Below, piece after piece: positions 8,121-14,612 of a stretch of 37,641 nt of DNA. Each line of letters starts with the position of its first letter. Positions within the stretch are counted from its first letter, which is position 1. A program made the translations under genes and the position numbers. The DNA is from Bdellovibrionales bacterium (GTDB lineage Bacteria > Bdellovibrionota > Bdellovibrionia > Bdellovibrionales > UBA1609), in NCBI GenBank assembly GCA_020628165.1, contig JAHDFM010000023.1, positions 16,487 through 54,127 of the forward strand, written 5' to 3'. The notes beneath the pieces were generated by a model. It did no database searches, was not told where the DNA came from, and saw only the letters and a program-made list of their open reading frames with translations.

Positions 8121-8453
8121 TTACCAAGCTCTTACGTATTTTCTCTTCTTAAAGGGTTTGTTGCGCTTGTGGTACTTTCTTACCTTATTGTACTTATATT
8201 TTACTTTTGGCTTTTTATATTTGTAATGATTTGTCTTGATGTACTTCACCACTCGTGGCTTTGGCTGGATCACTTTATAACGATGCTCTACCACTTGATA
8301 CTTAGGCCTAACCACCTTAACCACTTTGGGCTGTGGAAAGAACCAGGCAAATGGGTTGATGTATATGTTGGCTCGAACTTCTGCCTTTGCTAAAGATGGG
8401 GTTCCGATAAATAATAATAAACCTGCCATTGACATAAATAGAGTTTTTTTCAT
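8121..8453 (-). CDS. Small Lys/Tyr-rich secreted protein
   Basis: A 110-residue protein with a signal peptide (about residues 1-24, SLAKA|E) and a strongly basic mature part dominated by Lys, Tyr, Val and Arg with quasi-repeats such as PKVVKVVRPKY, PKPRVVKY and KPKVKYKY. It has no cysteine. The ribosome-binding site AGAGAGGT precedes the ATG. Upstream on the minus strand is an ECF-type promoter that matches the one in front of the Spy-like/sigma/anti-sigma operon, so it is probably a regulon member. A basic envelope protein could bind lipopolysaccharide, peptidoglycan or nucleic acid; this is inference. The opposite strand is open over much of the gene but lacks a start signal and is a shadow. 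Confidence 0.75.
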   Translation of the reverse strand: MKKTLFMSMAGLLLFIGTPSLAKAEVRANIYINPFAWFFPQPKVVKVVRPKYQVVEHRYKVIQPKPRVVKYIKTNHYKYKKPKVKYKYNKVRKYHKRNKPFKKRKYVRAW

Positions 8454-8497: not shown

Positions 8498-8525
8498 TTA
8501 GACGCGCGCAGCATCATGAGGGTTC
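8498..8525 (-). promoter_or_regulatory. ECF-type promoter for the Lys/Tyr-rich protein
   Basis: On the minus strand GAACC (8525-8521) is followed after 16 bases by CGTCTAA (8504-8498). This is the typical ECF sigma factor pattern (GAAC at -35, CGTC at -10). Transcription would start near 8490, about 37 bases before the gene. The motif and the spacing are the same as in the plus-strand promoter at 8591. Confidence 0.7.
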
Positions 8526-8590
8526 ATTTTTTATCTAAAAAAATATAAACTAAGTGTTATTAGGTACTTATAATTATTATTCTTTATTTT

Positions 8591-8618
8591 GAACCTTTCT
8601 ACCAACAGCTTCGTCTAA
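8591..8618 (+). promoter_or_regulatory. ECF-type promoter for the Spy-like/sigma/anti-sigma operon
   Basis: GAACC (8591-8595), 16 bases, then CGTCTAA (8612-8618). Transcription would begin near 8624, about 50 bases before the ATG at 8676. Because the operon encodes an ECF sigma factor, positive autoregulation is the natural reading. Confidence 0.7.
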
Positions 8619-8675
8619 TGGGTGATGCGTATTTAAAAGGACTTAATAAAAAGCCCAATTAACAAGGAGACAAGA

Positions 8676-9086
8676 ATGAAACGTTTAATGACTGCACTCA
8701 TCGGTATCGCTTTAATAAGCCCAATGGCCTATGCCAAGCGAGGACATCACAAAGCCAAACATGAAGAGATCTTTAAACAACTCGACTTAAGCGAGAAACA
8801 AAGAACAGAGCTCAAAGCTTTGAGAGAAAACAATAAAGACAATATGAAGTCTTTAAAGGAACAAAAGAAAAAGTTCCGTAAAGAAATGAATGAAGCAATG
8901 GCTTCAGACGCCAGTGAAAGTCAGCTCAGAACTTTGCATAACGAAATCACTCGTTTAAAAAATAAAATTAAAGACACTCGTTTTGAAAAAATGTTGTCTA
9001 TTCGAAAAATATTAACTCAAGAACAAAGAGTTAAGTTTTTTAAGCTTAAACAAGAAATGAAAAAGAATAAACGCAAAGGGTACTAG
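8676..9086 (+). CDS. Spy/CpxP/CnrX-like periplasmic protein with LTXXQ motifs
   Basis: A 136-residue exported protein: signal peptide to Ala20, then a helical, very basic mature part. Two LTXXQ-type motifs are at 38-42 (LSEKQ) and 113-117 (LTQEQ), the hallmark of Spy/CpxP chaperones and of metal-sensing relatives such as CnrX. A histidine group (H24, H25, H29) near the mature N-terminus could bind metal. The ribosome-binding site AAGGAGA precedes the ATG. It is the first gene of an operon with an ECF sigma factor 8 bp downstream and a membrane protein. The likely role is a periplasmic sensor that restrains the anti-sigma protein, as in CnrYXH-type systems, or a stress chaperone. Family assignment is from motif and length. 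Confidence 0.8.
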   Translation: MKRLMTALIGIALISPMAYAKRGHHKAKHEEIFKQLDLSEKQRTELKALRENNKDNMKSLKEQKKKFRKEMNEAMASDASESQLRTLHNEITRLKNKIKDTRFEKMLSIRKILTQEQRVKFFKLKQEMKKNKRKGY

Positions 9087-9094
9087 TTGAAACA

Positions 9095-9595
9095 ATGACC
9101 ATTTCCGATTTTAAATCTTTTTATAATGAACACGAGGCTTTTGTACGCAAAAGCCTCTACTACATTATAAAAAATACCGGTTTTGTTGACGATGTCGTGC
9201 AAGAGGTGTTTGTCAAAGTTTGGAAAAAGCAAAACAGTTTTAAGGAGCAAGCCAATGTTCGTACCTGGCTTTACCGCATCACTGTTAACTGTGCACTTGA
9301 CCATTTAAGGAAAAATAAAAAACGACTGGCCAATACAAATCTAGAGGACTTACCTGAGTTGCCGTCTGAAGAGTCAAATTCTTTGCATATGCGACAGCTT
9401 ATCAAATTGGCCATTGATCAACTTGACGATAAGTCAAAACCACTGTTTGTACTTTATTATATTAATGAGGTTCCACAAGCTAACATTGCCCTTGCTTTGA
9501 AAGTTCCTATTGGAACAGTCAAATCTCGTTTGAACAAAGCGCGCACCATTGTGACCGATTACCTTAAAACACAAGGAGTGAATTATGAATCATAA
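9095..9595 (+). CDS. ECF-family RNA polymerase sigma factor
   Basis: A 166-residue sigma70-family protein with only regions 2 and 4. Region 2 holds DDVVQEVFVKVW (32-43) and WLYRITVNCALDHLRK (58-73); region 4 spans about 105-155 with the HTH QANIALALKVPIGTVKSRL. There is no region 1 or 3, which defines the ECF class. It starts 8 bp after the Spy-like gene with a weak ribosome-binding site, so it is probably translated by coupling. Its last 11 bases overlap the following gene. The matching ECF promoters at 8498 and 8591 are its likely targets. Confidence 0.92.
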   Translation: MTISDFKSFYNEHEAFVRKSLYYIIKNTGFVDDVVQEVFVKVWKKQNSFKEQANVRTWLYRITVNCALDHLRKNKKRLANTNLEDLPELPSEESNSLHMRQLIKLAIDQLDDKSKPLFVLYYINEVPQANIALALKVPIGTVKSRLNKARTIVTDYLKTQGVNYES

Positions 9596-9902
9596 TGACA
9601 ACAATGATCCATTAAAGTCCTTTATAAAAAAACACACCTCAGAAGAACTTAGTAAACCAGTCAATGAGTTCAGTGAGATTTTAAATACCATCGAAAAGCC
9701 AAAGCGCCCCTTCTTTTTAAATAACTGGGCTTATTCGTCTCTTGCTGCTGCTTGTTTAATTCTTATGACTAGTTTTTATTTTTACCAGGGTGCTATACAA
9801 GAACCGATCAATGAAGAAGAGATTAGCTTTTTATTTGAGTCGTTTGGTGATGATTTTTATGATGATGACGTTGATGATCTTTATGGGGATGGGTTTTCTT
9901 AA
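9585..9902 (+). CDS. Small single-pass membrane protein, probable anti-sigma factor
   Basis: A 105-residue protein with a soluble N-terminal part (~1-45), one membrane span (~48-67) and a periplasmic tail that is extremely acidic (about 13 Asp/Glu between residues 77 and 102). This is the layout of short anti-sigma factors such as CnrY: the cytoplasmic helix would bind the sigma factor and the outer tail would receive the signal. No zinc-binding anti-sigma motif (HxxxCxxC) is present. AAGGAG gives a strong ribosome-binding site and the start lies inside the sigma gene (11-base overlap). Function is inferred from operon position and topology. Confidence 0.75.
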   Translation: MNHNDNNDPLKSFIKKHTSEELSKPVNEFSEILNTIEKPKRPFFLNNWAYSSLAAACLILMTSFYFYQGAIQEPINEEEISFLFESFGDDFYDDDVDDLYGDGFS

Positions 9903-9979: not shown

Positions 9980-10699
9980 TTAAGTGTAGGTTGAGTTTAG
10001 GTTTAGATTTTTTTCGTACTCTTTATTCATTTTTATTTTTGAAGTTCCTAGATGGAATTGCAATTTCATTTTTTGGTTGAGGAAAGCTTGTTTAAAAAAG
10101 CCATTGCTTTCAAAGCGCACAGGCGAAGTGATCGAGTGGCCCTTTAAACGGATTGGTCTGGCAATAGAACGCAATTTATAACTTAAATAGGTGTCTTCAA
10201 ATATATCTACCTCTTTAACTAGGTCTTCACCTTGTGACAACATCGACTTACTAAAGAAAATGCAATGATCTAAATAAATCACATTGGCTAAACGCAAGCG
10301 CACATGATTGGAGTAAAAAGAGGTGAATTTCAATAGCGGGCTGTTGTTGTTATAAAATTTATGAGTGAAACCACCCCAAATTTGTTGTGAACTAAAGTCG
10401 TAGTGGCTGACCTGGTCTAATGCCTCCGCCGTTAGGAAAGATCTTGGGTGATTTAGTAAAACAACATCATTTTTAGCTTCTCTAATGCCAATGTTCAATC
10501 GAGCCGCGCGCGAGTTTTTAACTGTGGTCACTACTTTTTGTCCAAGTTTCTGCAAATCTTCAAAAGTGCCGTCATTGTTTTTGCCTAAAACCCAAATCAG
10601 ATCAAAGTTATCTCGTCCTATGAAACTCTTTATGATTTTTCTATGAAACTTCAGTTTCATCTCATTTTTGACAGGTATAACAACAGAAATTTTGTTCAT
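9980..10699 (-). CDS. Glycosyltransferase family 2, diverged TIGR04283-like
   Basis: A 239-residue GT-A protein without membrane spans. ISVVIPVKNE (4-13) opens the nucleotide-binding fold; later landmarks (SRAARLNIGI, LDHCIFFSK, FEDTYLSYKLR, FHLG near the end) follow the TIGR04283 group, named after arsenosugar clusters but widespread without arsenic genes. Two core motifs are altered: the usual DGGSTDGT is reduced to GKNNDGT around residue 43 and the DXD-like HADT is HPRS (84-87). This could mean a different donor or loss of activity. Its start overlaps the DUF2064 gene by 4 bases (ATGA). It is the last gene of a five-gene operon. Confidence 0.75.
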   Translation of the reverse strand: MNKISVVIPVKNEMKLKFHRKIIKSFIGRDNFDLIWVLGKNNDGTFEDLQKLGQKVVTTVKNSRAARLNIGIREAKNDVVLLNHPRSFLTAEALDQVSHYDFSSQQIWGGFTHKFYNNNSPLLKFTSFYSNHVRLRLANVIYLDHCIFFSKSMLSQGEDLVKEVDIFEDTYLSYKLRSIARPIRLKGHSITSPVRFESNGFFKQAFLNQKMKLQFHLGTSKIKMNKEYEKNLNLNSTYT

Positions 10700-11385
10700 A
10701 ACTCTTGCAAAAACTCCCTAAGATTAACAGCGGCTGGATGATTTTGCAGCTGTAGTTGGCTCATTAATTTGTCTAAATCCGTTTTGTAATCAACATCAAA
10801 TGTGGGAGGTAACTTTTGAGTGATGAATTTATTGCTTTCGAGAACTTCTATCAATGACAGTGCTGTGTTGTCTTGACTGTACTCCACTGAACACCATAGT
10901 TCTTGTGATATAGGCGCTCCGCTCACAAAAGTGTAAAAACCACCATCATCGGCAGGACCAATCATATACTCATTGTCAAACAAAGGTTGAGTCACCCAGC
11001 TCAAATAGTCTTTATAGCTCAATTGGGGCGAGTCCCCACCCAAAAGAATCACCTTCTTATAACCTTTATCAATCAACCCGTTGTAGACTGAAGAGATCTT
11101 CTCACCTAAGCCTTCGCCCTTTTGATGAATGCGCTTGTGATCATTCCATTTGAGGGCATGCAAGGGAGTGAAGGCCTCTGACAACGACCAATAAACATCG
11201 ACCTCGCCAAACTTTATTTCATTCAGCAAGAGCTCTATTTCTTTTCTGATTTTTTGTATGGACAACTTGTAAAACTCACCGGCTTTTTTCAAACCGATCT
11301 CACCCCCTAGGCGAGTTTTAACAGGAGACAACTCCGGCGTTTTTACAAAGATTGCAATGGCTGTTTTGTTTTTATTAGATAGCAT
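10696..11385 (-). CDS. DUF2064 / TIGR04282-type glycosyl- or nucleotidyltransferase-like protein
   Basis: A 229-residue protein of the TIGR04282 group, a GT-A/nucleotidyltransferase-like fold. Signatures: IFVKTPELSPVKTRLG (12-27), LLGGDSPQL (114-122) and GPADDGGFYTF (143-153), all well conserved. In other bacteria this family is paired with TIGR04283, as here. The name refers to arsenosugar synthesis, but no arsM or arsS-like gene is nearby, so a different sugar product is likely. It overlaps the upstream DUF547 gene by 11 bases and the downstream GT2 gene by 4. The biochemical reaction of the family is, to my knowledge, not firmly established. Confidence 0.85.
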   Translation of the reverse strand: MLSNKNKTAIAIFVKTPELSPVKTRLGGEIGLKKAGEFYKLSIQKIRKEIELLLNEIKFGEVDVYWSLSEAFTPLHALKWNDHKRIHQKGEGLGEKISSVYNGLIDKGYKKVILLGGDSPQLSYKDYLSWVTQPLFDNEYMIGPADDGGFYTFVSGAPISQELWCSVEYSQDNTALSLIEVLESNKFITQKLPPTFDVDYKTDLDKLMSQLQLQNHPAAVNLREFLQEL

Positions 11386-12367
11386 CGTTTAACTTCCAAC
11401 TGTATAGGCTTGATTTAATTTTTAACTTCTTATCTTTTATCAATTGAACTGTTTTTGGATCATCGGCAAGGTGTTCAGCATTTTTAGCGGCAAAGTCTTT
11501 GACCGAATTATAACCCAACAAACCCCTTTCAAAGTCTTTCTCATACCAATTGGATATAATTGGAGAAAGAAAGAGCTTATTGCCCTCGACATAGTTTCTG
11601 TCGCGGTCTTTAAGAAAATTAACCATAGCTGTTTGCATTTGCTCGTCTAATTTGTCAGCAGTGAAAGCTTGTTGCAACAGAGCAGGGCATCCTTTGGACG
11701 CACAGTTCACCGCAAAGTGAATTCTAGGGTCACTGAATTCTTTTTTACTTTGTTTAAAATCGTCGCCTTTAAGCTCTCCTCTGATGAAACCATGCTCAAT
11801 ATCATTCAAGGTGCGTTTCTTACCAAACAAAGTGAAAAATGACTGCTCCCAAGGGTCTTTTAAAAACTTGCCAAGATCTTTAATGGAATTGCTTTTTTTC
11901 TTAATTGTGTCCAAGTTGTCTTTAATAAGCTTTAGAGTCAGAGCATTGTATAGATTTATAAAGTAAGCGAGTCTTTCACTCTTCGAAAAATCATTCATAA
12001 CTTGTTCACGACCTAAAGAAAGCAAATTTTCAACGACGGAATCTACTTTTTTAGAATCTAATTTTTTGTAGTCCACAGAGCTTTTCTGTTGGTTGTTATG
12101 AAGCTTCACCGTTTTACCCAAAACTGTAGAGAACTTAGAAAAATTGTGGTCAAAATTCACTTTCGTCACCTTGCTTAGCTTTTTAGAAGCCTGCACGCGC
12201 CTGCGCATTGCTTCTCTTGCATCATAAACCTTTTGTGGACTCACCTCTTTAGCGCGCGAGCTCGACCCACCTGCAGCGGCTCCACCAGATCCGCCACCCC
12301 CACCGCCTGAAGCGATGACGACACTTGAAGACGTGGCAACAATCAGAGTTAATATGGCTTTTATCAT
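11375..12367 (-). CDS. Exported DUF547 protein with Gly-rich N-terminus
   Basis: A 330-residue protein: signal peptide (~1-20), then a Gly/Ser/Ala-rich linker (20-38), then a DUF547 domain. Diagnostic parts are ERLAYFINLYNALTLKLI (131-148) and DPRIHFAVNCASKGCPAL (213-230) with Cys222, Cys227 and His217. Conserved Cys and His suggest an enzyme, but the family activity is unknown to me. A strong ribosome-binding site (AGGAGG) precedes the ATG. It shares the ADKLD-x-Q segment after the cysteines with the DUF547 lipoprotein two genes upstream, so the two are paralogs. The 3' end overlaps the DUF2064 gene by 11 bases. Confidence 0.88.
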   Translation of the reverse strand: MIKAILTLIVATSSSVVIASGGGGGGSGGAAAGGSSSRAKEVSPQKVYDAREAMRRRVQASKKLSKVTKVNFDHNFSKFSTVLGKTVKLHNNQQKSSVDYKKLDSKKVDSVVENLLSLGREQVMNDFSKSERLAYFINLYNALTLKLIKDNLDTIKKKSNSIKDLGKFLKDPWEQSFFTLFGKKRTLNDIEHGFIRGELKGDDFKQSKKEFSDPRIHFAVNCASKGCPALLQQAFTADKLDEQMQTAMVNFLKDRDRNYVEGNKLFLSPIISNWYEKDFERGLLGYNSVKDFAAKNAEHLADDPKTVQLIKDKKLKIKSSLYSWKLNDAI

Positions 12368-12396: not shown

Positions 12397-13608
12397 TTAT
12401 AACGTGGCTGATATATTTAAAGAAAAAATGTTTTCAGAGTAAACAGAACCGATCTCAGAGCCAAATGGCTTGTAGTTGGAGTCCTTGTCTATCTCATTAT
12501 ATTTCAACTCTAAATTAAACAAACCAATTTCTTTTTTAGCACTGATTTGAAAAGAGGAATCTAAATCTTTTCTAAAATCTCTGGATGTTGGATTTTGTTG
12601 TGGATTGGTGACAAAATTGTCAAATTCTCTTTGTGACCAAGAGTACTTACCTAACAGCTCAAATACACCGAACACTGGCAAACCGAGCTCTGCTTGTAAC
12701 CCAAACAAGTTGGCATTATTTGCCTTAAATATTAGGTCTTTTTCTTGGGCATAGGTTAATTTGAGTACAGTTTTTAACTTGTCCTCAGATTTAAAACCTA
12801 AGGTCATACCACGGTAAAGTTCAGATAGGACTGGGTTCACACCTTGATTGGTCGTTCCTTCCGTGTGCCTTGCCGACCTTTCTTTGTAATCTCTTTTGGT
12901 GTACGAAGGCTCAATATAAATGTCAGTCACATTCGACAAATGATAATTCAATTTGAACCTAGCACCCACTTGGCGGTAATCATCTTTGAACTCCGCAAAA
13001 GACCCTCCTGCACTCAACACATCATCTTGCACAAAACTGTCGTGAGTCTTTTCACTGTAGTTTCCCGAAACTTCAAAGTAAAAATCATCTTGGTTGAATG
13101 AGTAATAAGGCTCAACAAAAATTTGATTGTATTTGACATCCCTTGCCTGTTCACTCAAACCTTGTGCCGTAAAGTTAAAAGCACCGCTGTCTTCAATTTT
13201 ATAAACTGACGAAAAACCTAATTCGTGATCTGGGGTTACGAAGTGAGTTAAACCTAAAGACAATTCACCACTGATCTTCTCTTTGATTTCATCGACTATG
13301 TCGTCGTTGTGTTTTTTAAGCTCCCCTTTGAGTTCTGAATACAACAATAACTTGTTTTTTAAAATTTCAAAATTCATTTCAAGGCTCGGTTGTACTGTTA
13401 AAAACGAAGAATCTAAATCTTTTTCTGGCAACTGCAGTGGGTTGTCACTCACTCCAGACTCCAGAGTCACTTTAGGTTGAAACTTCAATTGAGACTCAGT
13501 GTAGATTTTAGCTTTGCTCTCTTGCTTCACCCGCGTAGTGTTGGTCGTGCTGGCTGAGGTGTTGAAACCAGTTGCTAATAAAATTGTTGTCACTATTAAT
13601 TTTTTCAT
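12397..13608 (-). CDS. Outer-membrane beta-barrel protein of the DUF547 operon
   Basis: A 403-residue protein with a signal peptide (~1-20) and then continuous amphipathic strands with aromatic girdles (DHELGFSSVYKIED, QVGARFKLNYHL, NIFSLNISATL), typical of a large barrel of perhaps 16-18 strands. The start is the ATG at 13608, which overlaps the stop of the upstream DUF547 gene (TGATG) and has GAGGTG before it; a TTG one codon earlier is less likely. It ends in Leu rather than Phe, which still fits barrel C-termini. Placed between two DUF547 genes and two transferases, it may be the outer-membrane exit or anchor of the product. No closer family is recognised. Confidence 0.75.
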   Translation of the reverse strand: MKKLIVTTILLATGFNTSASTTNTTRVKQESKAKIYTESQLKFQPKVTLESGVSDNPLQLPEKDLDSSFLTVQPSLEMNFEILKNKLLLYSELKGELKKHNDDIVDEIKEKISGELSLGLTHFVTPDHELGFSSVYKIEDSGAFNFTAQGLSEQARDVKYNQIFVEPYYSFNQDDFYFEVSGNYSEKTHDSFVQDDVLSAGGSFAEFKDDYRQVGARFKLNYHLSNVTDIYIEPSYTKRDYKERSARHTEGTTNQGVNPVLSELYRGMTLGFKSEDKLKTVLKLTYAQEKDLIFKANNANLFGLQAELGLPVFGVFELLGKYSWSQREFDNFVTNPQQNPTSRDFRKDLDSSFQISAKKEIGLFNLELKYNEIDKDSNYKPFGSEIGSVYSENIFSLNISATL

Positions 13609-14612
13609 CAAATCACCTCATTTAAGGACCAATCATAATCACTGTACTCTTCTAACCAAATATCTAAGTTGGTTAAGTCTGCTTTTGGAAAACCTAACTC
13701 CTCATCAGTCCTGTCTAAGTGATACACTATGAACTCTTGAAAGCTGCCATATCGACCTGAAATGTCGTTTTCAAAATCTTCAGCGTACCAATCAAAGATC
13801 GAAGACACTTCATAAAAATTATCACCATTTTCAGGGTCATAAACATCATCCAGTAACTCTATTGAATTGTAAGCTGGACTGGTCACAAAGAAGGTCGACA
13901 TTTCATCTAACTGAGCGTCGAGTTTATCAGCAGTGAAAGCTTCATTGCGCAAGGGTGGACAGCCCTTAGAGGCACAGTTCACTGCGAAGTGAATTCTCGC
14001 ATCGCCCATAGGTATAAGTATTTCTTTTTCAATTTGGTTAAGTGATAAGTTTTTGGTCCCCACCTTCCACTTAAAGACATCCCAAACTTGACTGTCAAGC
14101 CCGCCAATGTTGCGAATGCTCTTCTGCAAAGGAAATTCCGTAGTGTCTCTGTTCACCCCTTTGTCTAATTCCAGTAAGTTTTTTAAAATGAGCTCTATGG
14201 TCAACATGTTATAGGCATTGATGTAAAAGCTCATTTTTTGGTTGCGATCAAAACTGTCAGGATCGGTGTTATTGATGTGATTAACGACAACACACAAGTT
14301 CTTTTTGTCATCAAAGCTACTGATCCAGCTGTTGTAATTCACTTGACCTGACAAGCTAAAAGAATCTTTTGGCTGTAATGGTGTGACATACTTTTGTAAC
14401 AACTCGTCCATAATTGCCACGGTATTATCACCATAAACTTCATCCGTCGGTGTGTAATTCACTTCGGCAAATGGACAGTTCGTAGAGACACTGACTTTGT
14501 TATTTTTCCCAGCTTGTTCTTTAAAGTTTTCAGAAAAATTAGTGCCCATATCGGCTTCTGAACAGGCCAACAATGATAAAAAAACAAAAGTTAAAATAAA
14601 TCTCAGAAGCAT
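13608..14612 (-). CDS. DUF547 lipoprotein
   Basis: A 334-residue lipoprotein: LSLLAC places the lipidated cysteine at 17. The DUF547 domain has KMSFYINAYNMLTIELI (126-142) and DARIHFAVNCASKGCPPL (204-221) with Cys213 and Cys218. Compared with the Gly-rich paralog it has an acidic C-terminal extension. A long purine-rich ribosome-binding site (GGGGGAGGGG) precedes the ATG, the best in the operon, consistent with it being the first gene. The stop overlaps the barrel gene start by one base. Function unknown; membrane anchoring next to a barrel suggests work at the cell envelope. Confidence 0.88.
   Translation of the reverse strand: MLLRFILTFVFLSLLACSEADMGTNFSENFKEQAGKNNKVSVSTNCPFAEVNYTPTDEVYGDNTVAIMDELLQKYVTPLQPKDSFSLSGQVNYNSWISSFDDKKNLCVVVNHINNTDPDSFDRNQKMSFYINAYNMLTIELILKNLLELDKGVNRDTTEFPLQKSIRNIGGLDSQVWDVFKWKVGTKNLSLNQIEKEILIPMGDARIHFAVNCASKGCPPLRNEAFTADKLDAQLDEMSTFFVTSPAYNSIELLDDVYDPENGDNFYEVSSIFDWYAEDFENDISGRYGSFQEFIVYHLDRTDEELGFPKADLTNLDIWLEEYSDYDWSLNEVI

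Follow-up and report, generated by a model that had tools for sequence, protein, structure and literature searches.

We describe here a gene module of a Bdellovibrionales bacterium that, judging from its sequence, quite probably works as a self-regulating envelope-stress switch, in which a Spy-like chaperone and an ECF sigma factor are combined with a likely membrane anchor for the latter. The window, by which we mean the whole 37,641-nucleotide stretch of DNA that was analysed, contains the following features:

8121 to 8453, minus strand: Lys/Tyr/Arg-rich secreted protein, the putative divergent output gene (110 aa, predicted signal peptide)
8498 to 8526, minus strand: predicted ECF promoter TGAACC-N16-CGTCTAA on the basic-protein side (44 bp to the ATG)
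8565 to 8570: TACTTA block between the promoters (from the alignment of the intergenic regions of three genus members)
8590 to 8618, plus strand: predicted ECF promoter TGAACC-N16-CGTCTAA on the operon side (57 bp to the ATG)
8676 to 9086, plus strand: Spy/CpxP-like (LTXXQ) periplasmic protein (Pfam, profile match to Spy, AlphaFold/Foldseek)
9095 to 9595, plus strand: ECF sigma factor, orthologue of Bd0881 (166 aa; Pfam Sigma70_r2 and r4_2; PDB profile matches)
9585 to 9902, plus strand: predicted membrane anti-sigma factor (105 aa; position and predicted topology)

The three genes of the plus strand had been proposed in an earlier note to form one operon, and their tight packing agrees with this, the open reading frames being separated by a gap of 8 bp (spy-like and sigma genes) and then overlapping by 11 bp (sigma and membrane-protein genes). 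Between the two divergent start codons lie 222 bp. The gene of the basic protein (8121-8453, minus strand) falls slightly outside the region to which the module had been assigned in that note (8498-9902).

The sigma factor matches Pfam Sigma70_r2 and Sigma70_r4_2 above cut-off. It has regions 2 and 4 without region 1.1 or 3, as do the ECF (sigma-70 group IV) factors, and its profile matches in the PDB are SigW, RpoE and CnrH. The window operon matches bd0880-bd0881-bd0882 of Bdellovibrio, in which the order of the three genes is identical. Bd0881 is a 162-aa protein whose gene was found by RT-PCR to be co-transcribed with bd0880 and bd0882, and whose mutant, examined for its predation and its flagellin and chaperonin genes, is a less efficient predator (Lambert et al. 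2012, PMC3464611). The expression of bd0881 is specific to the attack phase (PMC3627812). A 162-aa sigma factor from one of the genomes that we compared (L054, in G048) matches, by eye, all 12 of the 12 -35-contact residues given for Bd0881; we infer this genome to be that of B. bacteriovorus or of a close relative.

The first protein of the operon has the properties of the Spy/CpxP (LTXXQ) family, that is, a periplasmic, all-helical protein made with a signal peptide. Indeed, its N-terminus is signal-like, it reaches 48.3 bits with Pfam LTXXQ (cut-off 24.3), and its AlphaFold model (pLDDT 82) is a helical bundle of four helices. Its mature pI is ~10.3, and every homologue is likewise basic, with a mature pI of 9.2-10.7. 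The module had been likened to the CnrYXH metal-sensing system. In a true sensor of this type, the Spy-like protein would bind a metal and signal via the membrane protein, and the sigma factor would then be released. The layout does support such a likeness, as the three functional parts are the same in both systems. The Spy-like protein also scores over the cut-off for Pfam Metal_resist (34 bits), its predicted fold resembles those of CnrX and ZraP (the top Foldseek matches include ZraP, CnrX and CpxP, none better than E 0.045), and CnrH controls an RND pump, a type of transporter that appears as a target in relatives of the window genome, as detailed below. The metal-sensing part of the claim, however, was not supported. 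The profile of the Spy-like protein matches E. coli Spy with an E-value of 8e-12, versus 0.44 for CnrX. The metal ligands of CnrX, His119 and Met123, appear to be missing from 11 of 11 homologues, neither His nor Met occupying the equivalent positions in an hhalign alignment that has itself a probability of 7%, and no histidine is conserved throughout these 11 proteins. Moreover, homology between the membrane protein and CnrY is not detectable (hhalign probability 0.2%), the gene order is X-H-Y here versus Y-X-H, and the pump of the relatives reaches 854 bits with a multidrug model against 396 with CusA/CzcA, both under their cut-offs, its best models being multidrug RND permeases. A metal sensor of the CnrYXH type thus seems unlikely to us.

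We would sooner guess at envelope stress than at metals as the signal, because the pairing of Spy with an RND pump parallels the Bae regulon of E. coli. The Spy-like protein itself is likely to be a chaperone and, at the same time, a periplasmic cofactor of the anti-sigma factor. CpxP and RseB are analogues for the role of a removable cofactor; by this analogy, and considering the opposite charges of the two proteins, we propose that the Spy-like protein could play such a role here.

The third gene very probably encodes the anti-sigma factor. Hydropathy and charge, on which the topology is entirely based, place ~50 residues of the 105-aa protein inside, followed by one helix (~53-71) and by an acidic C-terminal tail outside (net -13). 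The homologues have an N-terminus of 39-52 residues, a single hydrophobic stretch and a tail of net -5 to -14, and the stretch ahead of the membrane helix is conserved among them; the gene found at the position of bd0882 belongs to a family conserved across the order. The size, the N-terminus, the helix and the co-encoding with an ECF factor are those of the short one-helix anti-sigma factors (CnrY/AabA-like, class II). In particular, AabA of Acinetobacter has 107 aa and one helix, is encoded in the same operon as an ECF factor, was modelled like CnrY, and its anti-sigma activity was tested (PMC12153292). An anti-sigma function is strongly suggested because of the position of the gene, the predicted topology of its product and its retention with the sigma gene. 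Still, the protein might be a structural or effector passenger of the operon, with a sigma factor controlled by its amount alone. No homology to any known anti-sigma factor is detectable, which would fit with a passenger, and the authors of the Bdellovibrio study saw no anti-sigma homologue downstream of bd0881 and considered bd0882 unique (PMC3464611). Short anti-sigma factors do diverge, RseA and CnrY having ~3% of their sequence in common (PMC7406223). We nevertheless regard a passenger as quite improbable, since the protein resembles AabA and CnrY in its size and predicted topology, and its gene resembles theirs in its position and in overlapping the sigma gene. In addition, the gene accompanies the sigma gene in every operon whose contig does not end there, and the N-terminal stretch before the helix is conserved. 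The AlphaFold model of the membrane protein is poor (pLDDT 56), and the PDB matches of the anti-sigma profile were all implausible and were discarded.

The predicted promoters would connect this operon to its own product. The motif GAACC-N16-CGTCTA is found at 8499-8525 (minus strand) and at 8591-8617 (plus strand), for an expectation of 0 in dinucleotide shuffles (n=100). One extra base at each end extends both sites to TGAACC-N16-CGTCTAA, and together the two sites, which face apart, cover 121 bp. The matched divergent ECF promoters, with identical core and spacing, that had been noticed by the earlier note are therefore present, and the search of the whole 3.19-Mb genome with the same motif gave only two exact copies, both here; the base composition predicts ~0.08 exact sites. 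No site with one mismatch was found in the genome. There are 50 sites with two mismatches, a class that is background because the reversed pattern, used as a control, gives more (75 sites with no more than two mismatches). A site spaced by N15 is also present at C41:3237. A second divergent pair (L134), with two mismatches in each site and genes absent downstream, was attributed to chance, and the one-mismatch sites examined away from the operon in three genomes (G002, G048 and G053) were rejected as they lie inside coding frames. A GAAC/CGT-type promoter sequence is thus found, and conserved, upstream of the sigma factor's own operon. As the promoters are paired and co-occur with the operon, the sigma factor very likely activates its own operon and directly controls the divergent gene.

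G002 and G003, which belong to the genus as well, have the same four genes in an identical arrangement. The divergent promoter pair is kept in both, with one G002 site carrying a single mismatch (TGAACT), while the spacer and the surroundings have diverged. Accordingly, the identity in the three-way alignment of the intergenic regions is mainly at both -35/-10 pairs and at the TACTTA block (8565-8570). This block is common to the three genus members and runs into TATAAT in the window; it could be a basal promoter element or a regulator site. Further out, the gene downstream of the operon in G002 (L050:7142-9958) codes for a protein of 938 aa whose domains are galactose-oxidase-like (GlxA-type). 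In the window, two glycosyltransferases of the TIGR04283/TIGR04282 arsenosugar-biosynthesis type (under cut-off) adjoin a DUF547 protein at 9980-12367 on the minus strand. A similar-looking second protein, at 13608-14612, shares an ARIHFAVNCASKGCPxL stretch with the DUF547 protein, and a beta-barrel protein at 12397-13611 separates the two.

At the scale of the order, 141 genomes were searched with the profile of the sigma factor, and 26 of them have a clear orthologue, two much lower-scoring matches (one in G001 and a second one in G002) being set aside as paralogues. The Spy-like gene is upstream of the sigma gene in all 26 operons and the small membrane protein downstream of it in 25, with a weak score in G129, about ten of the 26 operon sequences matching by construction since they built the profiles; in the 26th operon (G022), the contig ends after the sigma gene. 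The membrane-protein gene also follows the sigma gene in locus L034, and no Spy-like or anti-sigma neighbour was found at the more distant ECF loci (L035-L049). As for the promoter, 16 of the 26 operons have the exact N16 site upstream, one (G062) has an exact N15 site, and five carry a single mismatch (G022, G051, G058, G094 and G100), the spacing being N15 in two of these, so that 22 of 26 operons are preceded by a promoter at 0-1 mismatch with a spacing of 15 or 16. The G122 promoter has two mismatches, and none was found upstream of the G129 operon, which an RND gene adjoins. In G019 and G038, CGTCTAA is kept and the -35 is changed to GGGAGC. Alongside this altered -35, region 4.2 of their sigma factors (L052/L053) reads VRSRVSRAR, versus VKSRLxxAR in most others, as if the promoter and the sigma factor had changed together.

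The site can also be followed away from the operon. An order-wide search gave 31 exact sites, versus 18 for the reversed control, and the operon is present in 17 of the 21 genomes with an exact site versus 9 of the 120 without one (Fisher p = 4e-12, a value that ignores relatedness). Seven of these 31 sites lie 17-41 bp upstream of the open frame of an RND transporter, distances that become 17-74 bp when measured to the methionine of its conserved MNLIDLS start. Within a Bdellovibrio-like genus (g38), the presence of the site at the pump depends on that of the operon: the pump promoter carries it at 0-2 mismatches in 10 of the 10 genomes with the operon and in 0 of the 10 without it, whose best matches have 4-5 mismatches (Fisher p = 5e-6, again ignoring relatedness); one additional g38 genome could not be scored. 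An RND pump lies beside the operon itself in G019, G038, G108, G128 and G129. Because of this dependence, the sigma factor of the operon very probably reads TGAACC-N16-CGTCTAA, and the Bdellovibrio module probably turns on a drug-efflux-type pump too. That another ECF factor would read the promoters, the local sigma gene serving other targets, could be argued from the wide occurrence of GAAC/CGTC among ECF promoters and from the presence of at least one other ECF-like gene in the genome (C15:12324), but this is very unlikely, considering how the site tracks the operon order-wide and, in g38, at the pump promoter.

In the window genome, no further exact site, and hence no pump site, was found, and the second target is probably the basic secreted protein (mature pI ~10.7), a genus-restricted output of the sigma factor. 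It had been presented as a new class of basic envelope protein, which is true only in the sense that no family model (Pfam or NCBIfam) matches it and that it was found in one genus; its role as a second output is supported, as three species of the genus have kept it and its gene has a divergent site of its own in each of them. G002 and G003 are the only genomes with homologues, whose genes always diverge from the operon, and no convincing relative was found outside the genus among the 141 genomes, a weak match in G038 (E 0.008) being rejected because it contains four stops. We may speculate that this lysine/tyrosine-rich protein replaces the efflux output of the Bdellovibrio relatives, shields or cross-links the envelope, and perhaps also competes with the basic Spy-like protein for the acidic tail, which would make it part of the signalling loop, but we consider this doubtful.

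Our preferred reading, in which we have good confidence, is thus an ECF switch for envelope stress, dedicated and self-contained. The membrane protein would hold the resting sigma factor at the inner membrane through its cytoplasmic N-terminus, and the Spy-like protein would stabilise this inhibited state via the acidic periplasmic tail of the anti-sigma factor. We propose this contact with moderate confidence, the binding to the tail being suggested solely by the opposite charges. Misfolded proteins or membrane-active compounds would then occupy the Spy-like protein, so that the anti-sigma factor lets go; the nature of this signal is put forward with moderate to weak confidence. The freed sigma factor would transcribe from TGAACC-N16-CGTCTAA its own operon, providing extra chaperone, sigma factor and brake, and a single local output, which would be the basic secreted protein in the window genus or the multidrug-type RND pump in the Bdellovibrio-like genus.

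A switch made of an ECF factor, a short anti-sigma factor and a periplasmic partner is of an already known kind. What appears to be new is this family in the Bdellovibrio order, together with its promoter and probable anti-sigma factor, and an output that would be a pump in some members and a basic secreted protein in others; we found no description of these in the literature searched, which included few subscription journals. The Bd0881 study recognised neither an anti-sigma factor, nor the promoter, nor these targets (PMC3464611); in Bdellovibrio, the second target is most likely the RND pump (site 17-77 bp upstream), whereas in the window it would be the basic secreted protein. One ECF switch would thus be coupled to differing outputs in related bacteria, and its promoter is defined precisely enough for a single reporter assay.

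CnrYXH of Cupriavidus metallidurans shares with the window module the ECF factor, the short one-helix membrane protein, the helical periplasmic protein of CnrX/CpxP/ZraP/Spy fold and, through the relatives, the RND pump target. It differs by its gene order, the sequence of CnrY, apparently the metal ligands, and the heavy-metal type of its pump; no excess of GAAC/CGTC sites was found in the cnr region of pMOL28. The SigAb-AabA-AabB system of Acinetobacter likewise combines an ECF factor, a one-helix anti-sigma factor (107 aa) and a periplasmic partner with autoregulation and very few direct targets, but it is copper-responsive and has another gene order (PMC12153292). Finally, the BaeSR regulon of E. 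coli, also small, brings together the Spy chaperone and a multidrug pump of the RND type and responds to indole, tannins and other envelope insults (PMC2731931, PMC4107485), as well as to zinc and tungstate; it does so through a two-component system, where the Bdellovibrionales module would use an ECF sigma factor.
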